A stretch of DNA of 64,000 nucleotides. Source: Acidobacteriota bacterium. Its GTDB lineage: Bacteria; Acidobacteriota; Terriglobia; UBA7540. The stretch is taken from contig JAMCXS010000027.1 in NCBI GenBank assembly GCA_023474345.1, forward strand, positions 1-64,000, read 5' to 3'. Under the pieces are notes generated by a model. That model saw only the letters and a list, made by a program, of their open reading frames with translations, did not search any database and was not told the DNA's origin. Position numbers and translations under genes: made by a program. Positions 3,727 to 59,536 of this stretch are shown piece after piece (the stretch's first letter is position 1; every line of letters begins with the position of its first letter).

Positions 3727-5859
3727 CTATTGGGGACCAATCTTGCTGAGATCGATGGGCTTGAAGCCAATGCCGTACGCCGGAGATCCGGGTTTGAGAG
3801 CAAAATCTCCCTGGGAAGGGTCCACAAACAGGGGATCGGCAATGAGCGAGTGCCTATCCTGCCCACGCGCCTGCCACTCCGCAAAGGACCATTTTCCGAA
3901 TCGGATCGGCCGGCCATCCGTCCGGAAGTAGAGATTGTGGTCAAAGTGATATTCGTTATTAGCCCATACCCCCTGAAATAACGGCCCGTGGTTCCAGTAG
4001 ACGATGTTGTGCTCAAAAGTAAAACTCAGGTGCGACTCGTCGCGCGAACGTCTGATCTGTGCTTCTTTCCCATATGCGAAGATATTGTTCCTGATTATGT
4101 TATTCGCCCCGTAGTTTTGATGGAAACCTCCGTCCTCGGTCCGATACACGACGTTGTTCTCGATGACGATATCGCTGCTGCCCTCGTCCGTATAAAGCCC
4201 CCAGCCTCCGTACCGGTAGCGGCTGACATCATGGCAAAGATTATTTCGTTCGACCGTTCCCGGCTGCACACCCAGCGTATAAATACAGCCCATATCACTA
4301 AGCATTCCCCGGCCAATGTTGTAAATGTTATTGAACTCAATTATGTTCGCTTTTGCGGCTGTCGGCTTGTAGCCCCATGTCCAGCCCACTGAAATTCCGG
4401 TGTAGTAGGTATCATCGATTTCATTATGGGAGATAGCGTTGTTGCTGCTCTCGCCAACCCAGATTCCCACCGCAGCCGGATAGACCAGGCCAATATCGTG
4501 AATATGATTGTCGGAAATTACATTCCCATCCGTTGCCTGGTCGTCACTATTGGGATCGGTCGGATCCCCGATCTTGACGCCGCCGGCCCCAAGGTCATAC
4601 ATGTCGTTTCCAATGACCCGATCGCCCTTGGACCCCTGCCTAATTCCCCACCACTTGGCCGCGCCCCCGCCAAACTCCACGGCATACCCTCCCAGATGTG
4701 CAAAGGTGCACTTTTCAATGTCGCAGGAGCGAGTGCCCATCCCTTCGACCGCCGCGGGAATGTCATACGCCGCCTGCAGGTCCACATAGCCGTTGGGACC
4801 CATCGACCAATCGGTATAACTCAGCGTCAACCCGCACAATCGAATGTCGTGAACCCAGCCAGTGCCGCCGCGCCCTTCAAACCGCACTAACTGTTCGAGC
4901 ACAGGCGCGATGACACGTACGTGATCCATCTTTTCTCCCGGCTCAGGGCGATAGTAAAGAATCCCCCTTCGACGGTCAAGATACCATTCACCCGGAGCGT
5001 CAAGAGCGTCCATCGTGTTTTCAACGCAGTAACGTGCATTGTCCTCGCGGTTCGATGGCGCAGGAGTCCTTGAGAGTGTGACCGTATGGGTCGCTTCATC
5101 TACACCGCGGATATACATCCTGAATTCAGCCCAGGCTTGCAGAGCCACAACTTCCACATGACCTTGCGCGGCCCACTGAGGCTGAATGTCACCTTGATGG
5201 AACTTGAATGTTGCCTGTTTTCCGGAACTGATTTTCCCGTCCACGAGGAAGAAGCCTGTGTTTGGTGTTCGGGCCCGCTGCCTTCGATGGCCGTTGACGA
5301 AGAGCTCACGGAAATACCACTTTCCTTCCTTAACTTCCGGGACATGGGCCATCCAAAGCTCTCCCCCGGCCTGGGCCACAAGTTTTCTGTCTGTGACCCG
5401 CTTCCAGCCGGTGATTTCTTTCCCGCCACTTAACACCGGTGTTTCGCCGGGATAGGCTGCGTAGGTGACGGGAGCTTGGGGCGTGCCGGAATCTTCCGGC
5501 GTAAATTCCAGAGGCTTTGCCAAGTCGTATTGCCCCCTGCGAATGTATACCGTGACAGGCTCTTTAAGTGGGCCGTTTGCTTTCAAATCACGGATGGCCT
5601 TTTGCGCCCTCTGCACAGTCCGAAACGGGCCATCCGTGCGGCCCGCATTCGGTTTGTCCAACTTGCCGGACCAAGCGTCGTTGCCGTCCGTCGCAACATA
5701 AAAAACTGTTTTGGCCGCTGTCTGGGGTAGGGCTGAAGCGCTGCACTTGCAGCTATACACCCCGGCGTGCGAAGCGCTCCGCGCCCAAGGAATCTGGGGC
5801 CGCGTGAAGAACAGAAAAATGGCCAGAATAACCAGCCCCGCTGCCAGCGATTTACTCAT
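3727..5859 (-). CDS. Secreted right-handed parallel beta-helix protein (pectate-lyase-like fold)
   Basis: Protein of 710 aa. Start chosen at ATG 5859 because GGAGG sits 7 bases upstream; earlier in-frame ATGs lack this. The N-terminus has a basic start and a hydrophobic segment (LAAGLVILAIFLFF), indicating a signal peptide or anchor. Then comes FYVATDGNDAWSGKLDKPN...DGPFRTVQRAQKAI, the usual entry of secreted polysaccharide-active beta-helix proteins, and a long series of N/D-rich rungs (e.g. NIIEFNNIYN, DIVIENNVVYR, NIIRNNIFAYG). The C-terminal PIDLSKIGPQ is a common end of the family. Predicted role: binding or degrading plant or microbial polysaccharide outside the cytoplasm; enzymatic specificity is unknown. 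After the TAG stop the same frame stays open for about 62 codons (see findings). Confidence 0.85.
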   Translation of the reverse strand: MSKSLAAGLVILAIFLFFTRPQIPWARSASHAGVYSCKCSASALPQTAAKTVFYVATDGNDAWSGKLDKPNAGRTDGPFRTVQRAQKAIRDLKANGPLKEPVTVYIRRGQYDLAKPLEFTPEDSGTPQAPVTYAAYPGETPVLSGGKEITGWKRVTDRKLVAQAGGELWMAHVPEVKEGKWYFRELFVNGHRRQRARTPNTGFFLVDGKISSGKQATFKFHQGDIQPQWAAQGHVEVVALQAWAEFRMYIRGVDEATHTVTLSRTPAPSNREDNARYCVENTMDALDAPGEWYLDRRRGILYYRPEPGEKMDHVRVIAPVLEQLVRFEGRGGTGWVHDIRLCGLTLSYTDWSMGPNGYVDLQAAYDIPAAVEGMGTRSCDIEKCTFAHLGGYAVEFGGGAAKWWGIRQGSKGDRVIGNDMYDLGAGGVKIGDPTDPNSDDQATDGNVISDNHIHDIGLVYPAAVGIWVGESSNNAISHNEIDDTYYTGISVGWTWGYKPTAAKANIIEFNNIYNIGRGMLSDMGCIYTLGVQPGTVERNNLCHDVSRYRYGGWGLYTDEGSSDIVIENNVVYRTEDGGFHQNYGANNIIRNNIFAYGKEAQIRRSRDESHLSFTFEHNIVYWNHGPLFQGVWANNEYHFDHNLYFRTDGRPIRFGKWSFAEWQARGQDRHSLIADPLFVDPSQGDFALKPGSPAYGIGFKPIDLSKIGPQ

Positions 5860-6353
5860 CGTGCGCCTCCGCATTGTGGATTGCTTCTTCAAGAGATTAT
5901 GCCGCGTCACACCCGCCCTCAGTCCCGATCATTAAGTCTAGCCCTTCAGCCCTCGAACGTATCCAATGAATTCCTCGCGAGCCCGTCCCGCCAGGAGTAG
6001 GCAATTCCTTCGGCCTCGTAAAATTTAATTTCAAAAGCACTGATTTTCAATTTAATCCTATAATCCCAAACCTCGTCAGCCCGGCCTAACCAAAACTGCA
6101 CGAAGGCGCAAAACACAGAGTGGAAATTCCAGCTGCACGTTGTGGGTAAATAGTCTATCGCGATTCGACGACTTTCAAACTGGCCTCGGAGAATCGCGAT
6201 CTTCTTGGCATTAACAGAAATAGACAAAGCAAAGATGAAAATATCCTTAGTCGGAAGCCTATTTCGCACTGCAACCTGCCTTTCTCGCATTTGCTGAAGT
6301 CTGGGTATTACCCGTATGGTTCAAAATACAAACATGTTTAAAGGGCCTTTCAG
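5860..6353. other. Non-coding stretch between the beta-helix and glycosidase-like genes
   Basis: About 490 bases, visibly more AT-rich than the flanking genes. An open frame at 5946-6290 on the minus strand has no recognisable pattern and no ribosome site. The region probably holds the promoter of the beta-helix gene; I could not point to convincing -35/-10 boxes. Confidence 0.5.
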
Positions 6354-55920: not shown

Positions 55921-55997
55921 CGTATCCCTTTCCTGAACCCCTGTGATGAATTGAAAATCTTAGTGTAGCAACAATCCTGCAGCCCAACAAGAGAGCG

Positions 55998-56005
55998 GAG
56001 AGGCT
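55998..56005 (+). repeat. Left 8-bp target-site duplication of the transposon
   Basis: GAGAGGCT directly precedes the left terminal inverted repeat and is repeated exactly after the right one at 59529-59536. An 8-bp duplication fits IS1- and IS1595-type transposases. Confidence 0.9.
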
Positions 56006-56024
56006 GGTAGTGGTATAGTTTGAA
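56006..56024 (+). repeat. Left terminal inverted repeat of the transposon
   Basis: GGTAGTGGTATAGTTTGAA matches the reverse complement of 59510-59528 at 18 of 19 positions, with looser similarity continuing inward (AAAT against GAAT). Confidence 0.92.
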
Positions 56025-56069
56025 AATTCCCTCTCTTGACTCCGCTGGTAGGCATGGCATTATGGAGTC

Positions 56070-56192
56070 ATGAAAAAATCAAAGCCGCGACCAAAACCAA
56101 AACGCAAGCCAACCGAGAAACAGCCTAAAGAAGATTTTAATCAAGCCGCCTTCCGGGTCGCTCAACAGACGATCCGGCAATCCGAGTCGTAA
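56070..56192 (+). CDS. 40-aa basic protein in the transposon
   Basis: ATG 56070 to TAA encodes a Lys/Arg/Pro-rich first half (MKKSKPRPKPKRKPTEKQPK) and a helical second half (EDFNQAAFRVAQQTIRQSES). The second half reminds me of short uncharacterised proteins found in several soil bacteria with a D-x-N-Q-x-A-x-R-V core. A TTGACT box at 56036-56041 with a CATTAT-like -10 would place the transcript start at or near the ATG, suggesting a leaderless message; GGAG two bases before ATG is too close to act normally. Function unknown; a DNA-binding role is possible from composition. Confidence 0.55.
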   Translation: MKKSKPRPKPKRKPTEKQPKEDFNQAAFRVAQQTIRQSES

Positions 56193-56241
56193 CGCAACCC
56201 CTCATATCGAACCCAGAAGCTTGCATAGCTAAAATTCATGC

Positions 56242-56290
56242 TTGACAAGCCTATAACTATTTGCTACGGTAGCACAATAGGAGGTATGAA
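56242..56290 (+). promoter_or_regulatory. Promoter with small palindrome and ribosome site for the 130-aa gene
   Basis: A perfect -35 TTGACA (56242-56247) is followed after 17 bases by a poor -10 position (TACGGT) that lies in an 11-base palindrome GCTACGGTAGC (56263-56273). AGGAGG (56279-56284) is correctly spaced to ATG 56291. The GCTACG core recurs in the other two promoters of the element, pointing to a common regulator. Confidence 0.55.
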
Positions 56291-56683
56291 ATGTTCAGGC
56301 CGCCCACCACGGAAGAGGTTGACTCGGAACTTCGGGATTTAGAGGTCAAGCTTCTAGAGTATAACAAACTCATCGAGCGGAAGCAAACGCTTCTAGAGTA
56401 TAAAGCCGTGCTAGCGAAAATGAATCCTAACGGCGCAAAGGTCGCAGAGGACGTACCGTCTCCTAGCCAGGTACCAACTTTGGGGACCGTAGAGGCTGCA
56501 AGGAGGGTACTTGCATCGGTCCCAGAAATGCAGATAGGCAACATTGTATTAGAGGCTCGTAGGATCGGCTGGCACGGTAGTGGGAATGATCGTACGGATA
56601 AAAATAGATTCTTCGCTGCAATGTACAGGAAGAAGGACCTATTTGAGAGATCATCCAATGGAGCTTGGAAACTGAGGAAATAG
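56291..56683 (+). CDS. Coiled-coil plus winged-helix-like protein of the transposon
   Basis: Protein of 130 aa that I do not recognise at family level. Residues ~8-50 form a charged coiled coil (EEVDSELRDLEVKLLEYNKLIERKQTLLEYKAVLAKM). After a linker (SPSQVPTLGT) the C-terminal ~65 residues (VEAARRVLASVPEMQIGNIVLEARRIGW..., then NRFFAAMYRKKDLFERSSNGAWKL) have the helix-helix-wing pattern of HARE/HB1-type winged helices that end in F-x-G-x-W-x-L. Such domains often link chromatin or restriction functions to DNA. A regulatory or DNA-targeting role in the element is inferred. It ends 1 base before a strong hairpin terminator. Confidence 0.65.
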   Translation: MFRPPTTEEVDSELRDLEVKLLEYNKLIERKQTLLEYKAVLAKMNPNGAKVAEDVPSPSQVPTLGTVEAARRVLASVPEMQIGNIVLEARRIGWHGSGNDRTDKNRFFAAMYRKKDLFERSSNGAWKLRK

Positions 56684-56684
56684 A

Positions 56685-56716
56685 AACAGCCAGTAAGTGC
56701 CACCTTACTGGCTGTT
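56685..56716. terminator. Hairpin terminator inside the transposon
   Basis: AACAGCCAGTAAG and CTTACTGGCTGTT form a perfect 13-bp stem with a 6-base loop, immediately after the TAG of the 130-aa gene. The 3' side continues CAAAACG rather than a T-run. As the stem begins with AA it would leave a short U-tract in both directions, so it may act on both strands. Confidence 0.75.
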
Positions 56717-56820
56717 CAAAACGTCAAATCCGATTCGCACTCAGAAAGGACGCTACACGTGTTTTTATACTACATTCGCGGACCACCAGTCAAGACCAAA
56801 CTCGCCCATTGGGGAACATT

Positions 56821-56849
56821 CGGGGAGTGCTTAAATCTAGTGCTCCCCG
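56821..56849. repeat. GC-rich hairpin before the tRNA-like structure
   Basis: CGGGGAGTGC and GTGCTCCCCG pair over ten positions with two G-T wobbles around a 9-base AT-rich loop. It lies 11 bases upstream of the tRNA-like sequence and may belong to the same RNA. Confidence 0.6.
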
Positions 56850-56859
56850 CAACTAAGTA

Positions 56860-56934
56860 AGGCCCGGAAGGCGAACGGTTCAGCCGCAGCCCTTGCAAAG
56901 TCTGAGAACTGGGTTCGACTCCCAGACGGGCCTT
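56860..56934 (+). ncRNA. tRNA-like cloverleaf with 8-base anticodon-type loop
   Basis: Acceptor AGGCCCG pairs with CGGGCCT. A D-like arm GGC/GCC has a loop containing CGGTTC. An anticodon-like stem CAGCC/GTCTG (one C-U mismatch) closes the 8-base loop CTTGCAAA. The T arm CTGGG/CCCAG has a canonical TTCGACT loop. One unpaired A separates the T arm from the acceptor. The flanks continue pairing (AGTAA with TTACT), extending the acceptor helix beyond a normal tRNA. The centre of the loop would read GCA (Cys) or UGC (Ala) depending on register. The departures from the canonical form mean it may be a degenerate tRNA, a tRNA mimic, or part of a terminator for the 49-aa gene whose stop codon it touches. 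Confidence 0.5.
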
Positions 56935-57083
56935 TACTTCATTTTATCACGCTTCTCTTGTTCCTTGGCCCAGCGTGCTTCAACTGCCTTGCGTGCGCTT
57001 TCGCTCCGCTCTCGCGGCGTTAGATTCTTCGCCCTCGCCTTTCCGCCTTTTCTTCCCAGTGCTACAGCATGAGGATTTTTCAT
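56934..57083 (-). CDS. 49-aa KGG-type basic protein, apparently leaderless
   Basis: From ATG 57083 the peptide reads MKNPHAVALGRKGGKARAKN, then LTPRERSESARKAVEARWAKEQEKRDKMK. The G-R-x-G-G-K-A-R-A...LTPxxRSExARKAxxARW pattern is a recurrent short motif in bacterial and phage small proteins of unknown function, probably DNA-binding. A longer frame from 57122 would overlap its own promoter. The -10 TACACT (57095-57090) lies about seven bases before the ATG, so the transcript should begin at or next to the start codon without a leader. It is divergent from the transposase gene and is a candidate autoregulator acting at the shared palindromic site. Confidence 0.7.
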   Translation of the reverse strand: MKNPHAVALGRKGGKARAKNLTPRERSESARKAVEARWAKEQEKRDKMK

Positions 57084-57089
57084 GCTGTT

Positions 57090-57118
57090 AGTGTATACGT
57101 AGCGGTAAGAACTGTCAA
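57090..57118 (-). promoter_or_regulatory. Divergent promoter with partial operator for the 49-aa gene
   Basis: Minus strand: TTGACA (57118-57113), 17-base spacer, TACACT (57095-57090). The + strand sequence ATACGTAGCG at 57095-57104 equals the left half of the palindrome in the transposase promoter, while the right half is only partly kept (14 of 18 positions overall). It overlaps the -10 side of the spacer. Confidence 0.7.
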
Positions 57119-57151
57119 GCAAAATATTTTCGTTGGATGCTCATTTTTCTC

Positions 57152-57181
57152 TTGACTTTAATACGTAGCGCTACGTATAAT
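57152..57181 (+). promoter_or_regulatory. Transposase-operon promoter with 18-bp palindromic operator
   Basis: TTGACT (57152-57157), 18-base spacer, perfect TATAAT (57176-57181). The perfect palindrome ATACGTAGCGCTACGTAT (57161-57178) fills the spacer and enters the -10 box, so a bound dimer would block RNA polymerase. Transcription should start near 57188, 18 bases before the transposase ATG. Confidence 0.85.
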
Positions 57182-57205
57182 GGACCCATAAGTTGAGAGG
57201 ACGCC

Positions 57206-58030
57206 ATGAACAGATTGAACAGAGAAAAACAAGCCCAGATGGTAGCGGCACTCGTAGAAGGCAATTCCATAAATTCCACCGTGCGTATGACCAGAGTCTC
57301 CAAGGTCACAATCTTGAAGCTGATTAGAGACCTTGGAAACGCTTGCGCCAATTATCAGGACCGCACGTTTCGCAACCTGAAATGCAAGCGGATTCAATGT
57401 GATGAAATCTGGCAATTCTGCTACTGCAAGGAAAAGAACATTCCCGCTAAATTGAAAGGCAAGTTTGGATATGGTGACGTGTGGACTTGGGTTGCGATTG
57501 AAGCAGACACGAAGCTTGTTCCTGCCTTCATGATCGGAAACCGCGACGGGCAGTCGGCTATAATGTTCATTGATGATCTGAAGAGCCGGCTTGCTAATCG
57601 GGTTCAATTGACTACCGATGGGCTGAAGGTTTACCTAGAAGCGGTTGAGGGTGCATTTGGAGCGGACATCGACTATGCCCAACTAATTAAGATTTACGGA
57701 GCGACACAAGAGGAAACGCGCTACAGCCCAGCCGAGTGCATCGGCTGCGAAAGTAAAATCGTTCAAGGCAAACCGGATATAAAGTACGTTTCCACTAGCT
57801 ACGTGGAAAGGCAGAATCTCACCATGCGGATGAGCATGAGGCGTTTTACTCGCCTGACAAACGGGTTTTCAAAGAAAGTTGAGAACCATGCTTACGCTGT
57901 GGCGATTCACTATATGCATTACAACTTCTGCCGGATTCACAAGACTCTAAGGGTTACTCCTGCGATGGAGGCTGGAATTACAGATCACGTCTGGACAATC
58001 AAGGAAATGCTTGATAGAGTCGGCCTCTAG
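57206..58030 (+). CDS. IS1-like DDE transposase
   Basis: Protein of 274 aa. An N-terminal helix-turn-helix (REKQAQMVAALVEGNSINSTVRMTRVSKVTILKLIRDLG) precedes the catalytic domain, with the first Asp in IQCDEIWQFCY, the second in QLTTDGLKVY and the Glu in TSYVERQNLTMRMSMRRFTRLTNGFSKK, followed by HYMHYNFCRIHKTLRVTPAMEAG. This wording is what databases call IS1-family transposase with a single frame, unlike E. coli IS1 InsA/InsB, which needs a frameshift. GAGG lies 7 bases before the ATG. Its TAG is followed immediately by the ATG of the methyltransferase-nuclease gene. Together with the inverted repeats and 8-bp duplication it should mobilise the whole 3.5-kb element. Confidence 0.9.
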   Translation: MNRLNREKQAQMVAALVEGNSINSTVRMTRVSKVTILKLIRDLGNACANYQDRTFRNLKCKRIQCDEIWQFCYCKEKNIPAKLKGKFGYGDVWTWVAIEADTKLVPAFMIGNRDGQSAIMFIDDLKSRLANRVQLTTDGLKVYLEAVEGAFGADIDYAQLIKIYGATQEETRYSPAECIGCESKIVQGKPDIKYVSTSYVERQNLTMRMSMRRFTRLTNGFSKKVENHAYAVAIHYMHYNFCRIHKTLRVTPAMEAGITDHVWTIKEMLDRVGL

Positions 58031-59488
58031 ATGGAAATACCGACTCAGATCATTTACTGCGGTGACTGCCTTCAACAGCTAAGCAAGCTACCTGACTCAA
58101 GTGTCGATCTCATCTACATTGATCCGCCTTTCAACTCCAACCGCAATTACGAAGTGTTTTGGGGAGAGGCCAAAGAGAAGCGAGCCTTCGAGGACCGCCA
58201 CGCATCGACCGCTGCATATATCGACTTCATGCGCCCGCGATGTGTGCAACTGGCGCGCGTCCTCAAACCTACCGGGAGCTTTTACTATCACTGCGACTGG
58301 CACGCCAGCCACTACGTCAAGGTCATGCTCGACCAGATTTTCGGAGAGAACAGTTTCCAGAACGAAATTATCTGGAAGAGGATTACCGCACATTCCGACA
58401 CTCACGGTTTTGGTCACGTTCATGATGTGGTCTTTCGCTACTCAAACGGGGGCAAGCCAACATTTAACGTTGAACTAAAGCCCTATCCGCAAGAGTACAA
58501 GGACCGCTATTTTATTTTTGAGGATGAATACGTCAAGACCCGTGGCAAGCATTGGCGTGCCGACATTACGGGAGCCGGTTTGCGGAATGGAGAAACCGGA
58601 AAAATATGGCGCGGGTTCGATCCCTCCCAAATTGGGCACGGAAGGCACTGGATGCAACCGCCAGCAGAGTTAGACAAGCTGTTAGAAGAAGGGCGGATTT
58701 ATCTTCCGCCGGACGGTGGAGTTCCAAAATGGAAACGATATGAAAATGAATTAAAGGGGGTTCCGGTTGACTCTATTTGGGTTGACGTGCCATCACTGGC
58801 GGGGCTTTCAAAGTCGGCCAAAGAATCCCTCGGCTACCCGACACAGAAACCACTCGCGCTATTGAATCGGATTATCAAAGCCAGTAGCAATCCGGGCCAA
58901 ATTGTTTTGGACGGCTTTTGCGGCTGCGGTACGGCCTTGGTATCGGCTCAAAATCTTGGCCGCAAATGGATAGGAATCGACATTTCACCGACCGCTTGCC
59001 GGGTCATGGCGAAGAGGCTTGTGAAAGACTGCGGGCTCATCGAAGGCAAGAATTTCGTGGTGCGAGATCTACCGTGGTCTGAATCGCGGTTGCGTAAAAT
59101 TCCGCCGTTCGAGTTCGAGAATTGGGCCGTAATCGCGCTAGGCGGCATCAAGAATAAGGCACAAGTGGGAGACATGGGGATTGACGGCAGAATCTATCCA
59201 GCGCACGCCACACCGAAAGGCGGAAAGAAGGCCGGGGAATTGGACTTTATGGATACGTGGTATCCGATTCAAGTGAAGCAAAAAGACAAAGCTGGAAGGC
59301 CCGATATCGACACATTCGAGGCCATAATGATGCGTGAGAATCGCGCTAAAGGGTTCTTTGTGTCGTTCGACTTTAGTCACGACGCCTTGACCGAAATCGA
59401 CAGGTTTTTCCGACGCGAGCATCGCGTCATCGTGCCCTTGACCGTACGAGATATCTTGGAAGAGGAAATAGCTGCAAAGCTGTCCTAG
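58031..59488 (+). CDS. DNA methyltransferase fused to a restriction-endonuclease-like domain
   Basis: Protein of 485 aa. Residues ~1-340 are a beta-class N4-cytosine/N6-adenine methyltransferase: the catalytic DPPF is at residues 31-34 (LIYIDPPFNSNRNY), and the SAM motif is late, at about residue 294 (VLDGFCGCGTALVSAQNLGRKWIGIDIS), preceded by YPTQKPLALLNRII. Residues ~360-485 form a second domain (FENWAVIALGGI, VGDMGIDGRIYP, WYPIQVKQKDKAG, KGFFVSFDFSHDA) with the D...Q-x-K layout of Mrr-type PD-(D/E)xK nucleases. This suggests a single-chain restriction-modification enzyme or a methyltransferase with a nuclease-derived specificity domain. Translation begins on the base after the transposase stop, so synthesis is coupled to it. 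The target sequence cannot be read. Confidence 0.88.
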   Translation: MEIPTQIIYCGDCLQQLSKLPDSSVDLIYIDPPFNSNRNYEVFWGEAKEKRAFEDRHASTAAYIDFMRPRCVQLARVLKPTGSFYYHCDWHASHYVKVMLDQIFGENSFQNEIIWKRITAHSDTHGFGHVHDVVFRYSNGGKPTFNVELKPYPQEYKDRYFIFEDEYVKTRGKHWRADITGAGLRNGETGKIWRGFDPSQIGHGRHWMQPPAELDKLLEEGRIYLPPDGGVPKWKRYENELKGVPVDSIWVDVPSLAGLSKSAKESLGYPTQKPLALLNRIIKASSNPGQIVLDGFCGCGTALVSAQNLGRKWIGIDISPTACRVMAKRLVKDCGLIEGKNFVVRDLPWSESRLRKIPPFEFENWAVIALGGIKNKAQVGDMGIDGRIYPAHATPKGGKKAGELDFMDTWYPIQVKQKDKAGRPDIDTFEAIMMRENRAKGFFVSFDFSHDALTEIDRFFRREHRVIVPLTVRDILEEEIAAKLS

Positions 59489-59509
59489 CACGGTTCGTGC
59501 CTTAGATTC

Positions 59510-59528
59510 TTCAAACTGTACCACTACC
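59510..59528 (-). repeat. Right terminal inverted repeat of the transposon
   Basis: Read on the minus strand the end is GGTAGTGGTACAGTTTGAA, one base different from the left end. It begins 22 bases after the stop codon of the methyltransferase-nuclease gene, so the coding cargo fills the element to its edge. Confidence 0.92.
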
Positions 59529-59536
59529 GAGAGGCT
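59529..59536 (+). repeat. Right 8-bp target-site duplication
   Basis: GAGAGGCT, identical to 55998-56005 on the other side of the element. Confidence 0.9.

Follow-up and report, generated by a model that had tools for sequence, protein, structure and literature searches.

A group of IS1-related cargo transposons appears to carry tRNAs with non-cognate anticodons

The stretch of DNA analysed here, called the window throughout, comprises 64,000 nucleotides of an Acidobacteriota genome (contig JAMCXS010000027.1 of assembly GCA_023474345.1), and our subject is a 3,523-bp element that spans positions 56006-59528 of it. This element is almost certainly complete and one of a large group of IS1-related transposons that carry cargo genes, and tRNAs with anticodons foreign to their bodies are very probably a real, recurrent part of the group's cargo. 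Judging from sequence, the tRNAs on such IS1-like transposons appear to include putative missense and nonsense suppressors. To the explanation as a whole, a cargo transposon group with recurrent non-cognate tRNA cargo, we give a probability of about 0.72.

Results

The window element has intact ends and an IS1-related transposase

A first-pass annotation of the window, made from sequence alone, had described an IS1-type transposon, intact and bearing both cargo and a tRNA-like RNA, and its ends, target duplication, profile matches and a match to Rfam all bear this description out. The 19-bp inverted ends, with one mismatch, are present at 56006 and 59528 and read GGTAGTGGTAYAGTTTGAA; outside them, a perfect 8-bp direct repeat, GAGAGGCT, flanks both sides. 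When we scored ends plus an 8-bp repeat around the transposase, the best observed score was 19 of 22, compared with a maximum of 16 in 200 Markov shuffles of the same 14-kb stretch, none of which reached 17 or more. IS1 target duplications range from 8 to 9 bp, and the 8 bp seen here fall within that range.

55998..56005, no strand: left copy of the target duplication, 8 bp, GAGAGGCT, read in the sequence
56006..56029, + strand: left terminal inverted repeat, GGTAGTGGTATAGTTTGAA..., from a repeat search; GGTAGTG is the family-wide consensus
57206..58030, + strand: IS1-related DDE transposase, 274 aa, from Pfam and NCBIfam profiles
59505..59528, - strand: right terminal inverted repeat, from a repeat search
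59529..59536, no strand: right copy of the target duplication, GAGAGGCT, read in the sequence

The transposase passes the cut-off of Pfam DDE_Tnp_IS1 (29.6 bits; cut-off 24.1), falls below that of the NCBIfam IS1 model (NF033558, 57.1 bits; cut-off 100) and fails the IS1595 model (18 bits; cut-off 75). The call of an IS1-like transposase is upheld by these scores, by which the protein is an IS1-related, atypical IS1 member. Homology of the left flank stops at 55995, two bases ahead of the duplication, in the one same-genus genome searched (G001, locus L083), and the right flank gave only three short weak matches among 40 relatives. These flank data fit an insertion at 55998. The element is single-copy in its own genome, which is 75% complete.

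The element belongs to a large group in which cargo is the rule

A scan of species genomes with the transposase yielded 148 relatives, from which 80 loci were kept; whole-genome searches and scans of viral contigs raised the set to 363 loci, duplicates included. An end-blind search, requiring an exact 8-bp repeat outside 22-bp ends that match at 17 or more positions, delimited 223 elements, or 162 after clustering at 95%, the window element included, with a median of 3,006 bp. The 8-bp duplication in these 162 elements is thus a criterion of the search. In the remaining 140 of the 363 loci no bounded element was found, owing to contig ends, short flanks, decay or ends lying beyond 5 kb. When each of the 162 loci was shuffled once, no such end-repeat pair appeared, and a few of the 162 elements look spurious (for example, L319 and L393). 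The elements come from many phyla, and 135 of the 162 start with GGTAGTG. The earlier proposal of searching genomes with both ends thus succeeded family-wide, and the order of transposase followed by fusion recurs (see below), but no copy turned up that holds all the genes of the window element.

A small protein with a KGG motif is encoded in 151 of the 162 elements, on the transposase strand in 136 and with its start no more than 200 bp from the left end in 97. Where read, it is typically a single chain of 70-100 aa; in the window its halves appear to lie apart, one at the left end and one facing the transposase. Plasmid-borne relatives are annotated 'IS1 family transposase', and one KGG gene that neighbours an IS1-like transposase, on a plasmid of Mesorhizobium loti, bears the label 'histone H1' (L476, 2075-2284).

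Cargo was counted in the first 58 elements besides that of the window, over 105 open reading frames of 140 aa or more, where one frame may match several families. The 25 commonest of 42 families included HTH_3 (18), IrrE/M78 peptidase (8), P63C (7), SDH protease (5) and Fic (3), with single matches to BglII, GmrSD, MT-A70 and an IS1595 transposase. In PADLOC, where matches overlap, the 25 commonest of 191 families included RmrA and PD-Lambda-2_B (6 each) and SoFic and PDC-S04 (3 each). These matches suggest that the group often carries small toxin-antitoxin or defence-type modules as interchangeable cargo, a pattern that the fusion in the window would fit.

With the IS1 family the group shares the relationship of its transposase and the 8-bp duplications. 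The window element differs from that family in its single 274-aa frame, its score below the NCBIfam IS1 cut-off, its KGG partner gene and its cargo, and the group as a whole differs in size (1.3-6.9 kb, the largest being doubtful). Transporter IS (tIS) is a known term (used in parts of PMC3129680 and PMC9330008), and tIS have been described with IS1595 and 'its relation to IS1' (Siguier 2009, as cited in a passage of PMC3129680). Like a tIS, the window element combines insertion sequence ends and a transposase with passenger genes, here a methyltransferase fusion and a tRNA-like gene, but the group differs in having an IS1-like transposase, which reaches only 18 bits with the IS1595 model, and a near-universal KGG gene. 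The first-pass view that cargo on an IS1-type element is exceptional was not supported, as elements of this group carry cargo as a rule and the term 'transporter IS' already has its place in the vocabulary.

tRNAs recur in the group, with anticodons that do not fit their bodies

We ran a covariance model built from 23 canonical tRNAs over the 162 element loci, and a separate scan added L384. Default ARAGORN, applied to the first 59 elements, made four calls and missed some clear tRNAs; its -ps80 setting gave a flood of false calls and was not used, and a first T-arm scan missed L125 and L151. In all, 21 tRNAs or tRNA-like genes were found in 20 of the 162 elements (17 of 102 cellular and 3 of 60 viral-contig elements). 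In 14 of these 20, as in the window, the tRNA lies on the transposase strand and no more than 500 bp before the transposase; in the other six it lies elsewhere or on the opposite strand. L319 was excluded from this count for its dubious ends and cognate-looking tRNA, and L147 (GAC on a Ser body, beside the transposase) and L019 stand outside the 162 because their ends were not resolved.

Anticodons were read with ARAGORN at a relaxed setting (AGC in L020 by loop position), and bodies were assigned by nearest-neighbour score against 60 tRNAs from two genomes, a procedure that was right for 52 of 60 in a leave-one-out test and for 14 of 14 class II tRNAs. Serine tRNAs are class II; in the elements, the serine anticodons ACT (three times) and GCT (once) occur on class I bodies. 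TTA, which reads the stop codon UAA, occurs on three Leu bodies (L166, L307 and L309), and GGG, in L185, and TCC also sit on Leu bodies. A Ser body bears TAT in L377 (a UAU anticodon) and GTA in L391, with L384 alike; CGC and TGC occur on class II bodies, with L379 alternatively readable as GCA. A GTC tRNA, a TTC tRNA and the tRNAs of L357, L032 and the window show no clear pairing of anticodon and body. A Ser-type nearest body goes with a non-serine anticodon in L019, L020a, L377 and L391, and in L384 through its likeness to L391. By our count, 13 of the 21 tRNAs carry an anticodon impossible for their class, compared with 0 of 60 canonical tRNAs (p 5e-10, with rows partly non-independent): nine are class II without a Ser, Leu or Tyr anticodon, and four are class I with a Ser anticodon.

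Two elements illustrate the arrangement. In L020, two mis-assigned tRNAs stand in tandem before the transposase (4643-4848), AGC on a Ser body and AGA on a Leu body. L309 is near-minimal at 1,323 bp, holding the transposase, a UAA-reading Leu-bodied tRNA and a shortened left-end KGG gene. We also considered, and rejected, the idea that the element itself needs the suppressor: the transposases of L166, L307 and L309 are without a stop, and reading TAA as leucine extends the 3' end of no recognised gene in these three by more than one residue.

With the viral tRNA-array loci L448 and L399 left out, tRNAs are denser inside the elements than outside. In a strict scan, the cellular loci gave 11 in 305,526 bases inside and 2 in 660,308 outside (p 1.2e-4), and all loci minus two, with L319 dropped, gave 13 inside and 4 outside (p 1.5e-4). 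L384 and L391 have kept their GTA tRNA, with compensatory changes in the anticodon and T stems, and both of their flanks have diverged. On the transposase tree, the presence of a tRNA changes 18 times, at least nine of them on well supported branches, and shows no clustering (97 of 500 shuffles were as low); thus, tRNA cargo seems to come and go, with many gains or losses. Elements with a RelE-like cassette carry a tRNA in 6 of 11 cases, compared with 14 of the 151 others (p 5e-4), an association that was partly sought, as the L384 tRNA was noticed while that cassette was being inspected. Among the tRNAs of RelE-cassette elements, three have ACT, a rare anticodon. When five RelE elements were rescanned without filters, no additional tRNA turned up; scans of all other elements used filters. 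RelE-like gene and tRNA occur together in L015, L029, L140, L189, L391 and L384, with an XRE gene adjoining where read.

In the literature searched we found tRNA genes nowhere described as cargo of IS1-like transposons, and an earlier description is possible. The nearest known tRNAs are the allo-tRNAs (Mukai 2017, as summarised in parts of a 2020 review, PMC7609411), which combine Ser-type bodies with non-serine anticodons, as some of the element tRNAs do going by their nearest bodies, and which likewise occur in Acidobacteria and soil; the UAU anticodon of L377 is among the predominant ones listed there. The element tRNAs differ in having 7/5 rather than 8/4 acceptor and T stems, in the UAA-reading anticodons on Leu bodies and in their placement within defined transposon ends. 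The 8/4 or 9/3 arrangement of allo-tRNAs was not seen: bases 8 and 65 cannot pair in 22 of 23 tRNAs, the window's included, the exception being the degenerate L032, with positions taken at fixed distances, which fail for L140. According to passages of the same review, allo-tRNAs inserted Ser or Ala in E. coli, where a UAU group was not functional; the review notes one pseudogene that overlaps the gene of a transposon, and it connects these tRNAs with transposons or toxin-antitoxin systems as a hypothesis only.

The window element carries a methyltransferase-nuclease fusion and a weak tRNA-like gene

Within its ends, the window element holds, in order, a 40-aa frame, a 130-aa frame, a hairpin, the tRNA-like stretch, a 49-aa KGG frame on the opposite strand, the transposase and a methyltransferase-Mrr fusion. 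The first-pass statement that all frames are open was loose; genes occupy most, but not all, of the element.

56070..56192, + strand: 40-aa left-end reading frame, like the N-terminal part of the family KGG protein, by tblastn and comparison by eye
56263..56273, no strand: palindrome GCTACGGTAGC in the promoter region of the 130-aa gene, read in the sequence; putatively operator-like
56291..56683, + strand: small protein of 130 aa, coiled-coil-like by eye, from its reading frame and a homology search
56685..56716, no strand: perfect 13-bp hairpin at the end of the 130-aa gene, from a repeat search; putatively terminator-like
56861..56933, + strand: tRNA-like gene with an 8-nt anticodon loop, CTTGCAAA, and an imperfect anticodon stem, from Rfam RF00005 and our own covariance model
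56934..57083, - strand: 49-aa KGG-motif protein (GRKGGKARAKNLTPRERSESARKAVEARW), divergent from the transposase, from its reading frame and comparison with family proteins
57095..57107, no strand: ATACGTAGCGGTA repeat in the promoter region of the KGG gene, from a repeat search
57162..57177, no strand: 16-bp palindrome TACGTAGCGCTACGTA over the transposase promoter region, read in the sequence; a putative operator
58031..59488, + strand: DNA methyltransferase of 485 aa (DPPF, FCGCGT) fused to an Mrr-type nuclease domain (GIDG...QVK)

The fusion starts at the base directly after the transposase stop codon. It matches N6_N4_Mtase strongly (1.7e-47) and Mrr_cat weakly (7e-4, 20.1 bits, slightly below the cut-off of 21), and it matches a PADLOC type II methyltransferase at 7.8e-67. 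The motifs of both domains are intact, and DPPF, CGCGT, GIDG and QVK are invariant across four aligned proteins. The protein is predicted to be a single-chain enzyme of restriction-modification type, which would cleave unmethylated DNA. With the known methyltransferase-Mrr type it shares an N6/N4 methylase and a PD-(D/E)XK-like C-terminus; it differs in being carried on an IS1-like element.

Among the 363 loci, a protein with a methylase and a GxDxGxDG...VK motif follows the transposase on the same strand in three, all of them viral-contig loci: L455 (4820-6085 in oriented coordinates), L402 and L416. Both ends were found in L416 alone, where the protein lies inside a 4.2-kb element (ends 21/22, 8-bp repeat); there, too, the fusion is carried on an IS1-like element, and probably likewise in L455 and L402. 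Fusion relatives in related genomes are 45-49% identical. Around 11 relatives in such genomes, viewed with up to 1.5 kb of flank, an IS1-like transposase was seen solely as a short fragment (L093), and fusion pieces in G018 and G038 sit at contig ends with no transposase in view. Thus, it seems that the fusion occurs both on and off IS1-like elements.

The 40-aa frame has relatives by tblastn in L002 (78%), L005 (68%) and L007 (59%). The 130-aa protein has no match in a Pfam scan, and profile searches seeded with it found no relative within the 162 elements; the sole relative detected, in L019 (32%, E 3e-17), also precedes a tRNA and the transposase. Sequences related to GCTAC/GTAGC recur at three promoter regions (56263-56273, 57095-57107 and 57162-57177), which suggests one shared repressor for all three.

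Discussion

Several observations weigh against the reading of these elements as vehicles of non-cognate tRNAs. At the sensitivity used, 142 of the 162 elements have no tRNA, and three of the 20 that do (the window, L032 and L357) have degenerate or odd ones. Body assignment is weak for class I, L022, L379 and the window. If the viral tRNA-array loci L448 and L399 (28 hits) are kept, the density comparison becomes 14 inside and 32 outside (p 1.0); the anticodon result is independent of whether they are kept or dropped. In the empty-site check suggested for the window, the end of left-flank homology is compatible with insertion, but no clean empty site was found for the left flank in G001 or for the right flank among 40 relatives. 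Finally, the window's own tRNA-like gene scores lowest of the 18 tRNAs in its genome, the next having 48.9 bits, its anticodon stem is poor and it folds no better than shuffles (z about -1).

These last points bear on the strongest alternative, namely that the tRNA-like stretch of the window is a functionless tRNA remnant or intergenic fold and only the protein cargo matters, which we regard as an even bet. ARAGORN makes no call on it at default and gives 'tgca' at the relaxed setting. The annotated tRNA-like RNA nonetheless stands as an Rfam match, weak but above the gathering score (RF00005, 34.2 bits; gathering 29), with 30.3 bits from our own covariance model. Against a mere remnant, six of seven acceptor pairs and all five T-stem pairs are retained, and its place, strand and gene order equal those of better tRNAs in relatives. 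In L019 the window's order of small protein, tRNA and transposase recurs, the tRNA there pairing a Ser body with a TGC anticodon, and the window loop CTTGCAAA may be a worn form of such an anticodon. The window copy looks decayed or very divergent, and, going by its sequence, it is unlikely to be active.

For the group, we picture the following. A single DDE transposase would move the whole unit, with the KGG protein as its partner or regulator, and the cargo would give the host a reason to keep it, here through an enzyme of restriction-modification type and elsewhere through toxin-antitoxin or defence functions. SerRS and LeuRS do not read the anticodon, so tRNAs with Ser or Leu bodies should be chargeable whatever their anticodon. 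Such tRNAs would be charged with Ser or Leu and would deliver these residues to alanine, glycine, proline, isoleucine or stop codons. Their most likely role would be missense or nonsense suppression that is limited by dose and restrained by regulators of the element; because unchecked suppression would be harmful, it is presumably regulated. Suppressor activity in the host is a tentative proposal, to which we give somewhat less than an even chance. More speculative still is the proposal that IS1-like transposons are dedicated vehicles for recoded tRNAs, pairing a regulator (wHTH or a RelE-HTH cassette) with a suppressor tRNA so that the host mistranslates on cue, and that they are the natural home of many orphan soil allo-tRNAs. 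If so, the mistranslation module could serve as an RNA toxin, abort phage infection or allow the proteome to change conditionally.

Two other roles for the tRNAs are unlikely, to about the same degree. They might block transcription or offer a processing site ahead of the transposase promoter rather than decode, as the placement of 14 of the 20 would allow, but the six placed elsewhere or on the opposite strand argue against this, and it leaves unexplained both the non-cognate anticodons and the anticodon kept between L384 and L391. Alternatively, they might be decoys or cleavage-resistant substitutes that counter tRNA-cutting toxins, including phage or host anticodon nucleases, which would suit the abundance of toxin-antitoxin and defence-type cargo and the co-occurrence of tRNAs with RelE-like cassettes. 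However, decoys need no Ser or Leu bodies with foreign anticodons, RelE-type toxins cut mRNA, and no anticodon nuclease was recognised in the tRNA-bearing elements, whose reading frames were listed and partly scanned. Least probable is the first-pass view that the fusion makes the element addictive, loss of methylation exposing the host to the nuclease: intact motifs in both domains, the PADLOC match and the recurrence of such fusions after the transposase in three other loci speak for it, but loss of a gene encoding both activities in one chain removes both, so post-segregational killing would need unequal decay, and 11 fusion relatives, viewed with up to 1.5 kb of flank, have next to them no transposase beyond the L093 fragment.

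On the preferred reading, in which the group carries non-cognate tRNAs, the mismatched tRNAs of the relatives could cause misreading of the genetic code in cells. The purpose of allo-tRNAs and irregular soil tRNAs is left open in the parts of the 2020 review on which we draw (PMC7609411), and tRNAs within exact transposon ends, such as the 1,323-bp L309, are cloneable units in which the role of allo-tRNAs could be tested directly. The protein cargo points further to a common, poorly annotated transposon group that would carry small defence and toxin-antitoxin modules across phyla. One complete-looking element lies on a contig labelled as an Asgard archaeon, with a length of 4.2 kb, possibly through a binning error (L018). 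Another IS1-like element sits inside a CRISPR array (L072, 2577-5897), with DR16 repeats at 551-2515 and 5968-6003.

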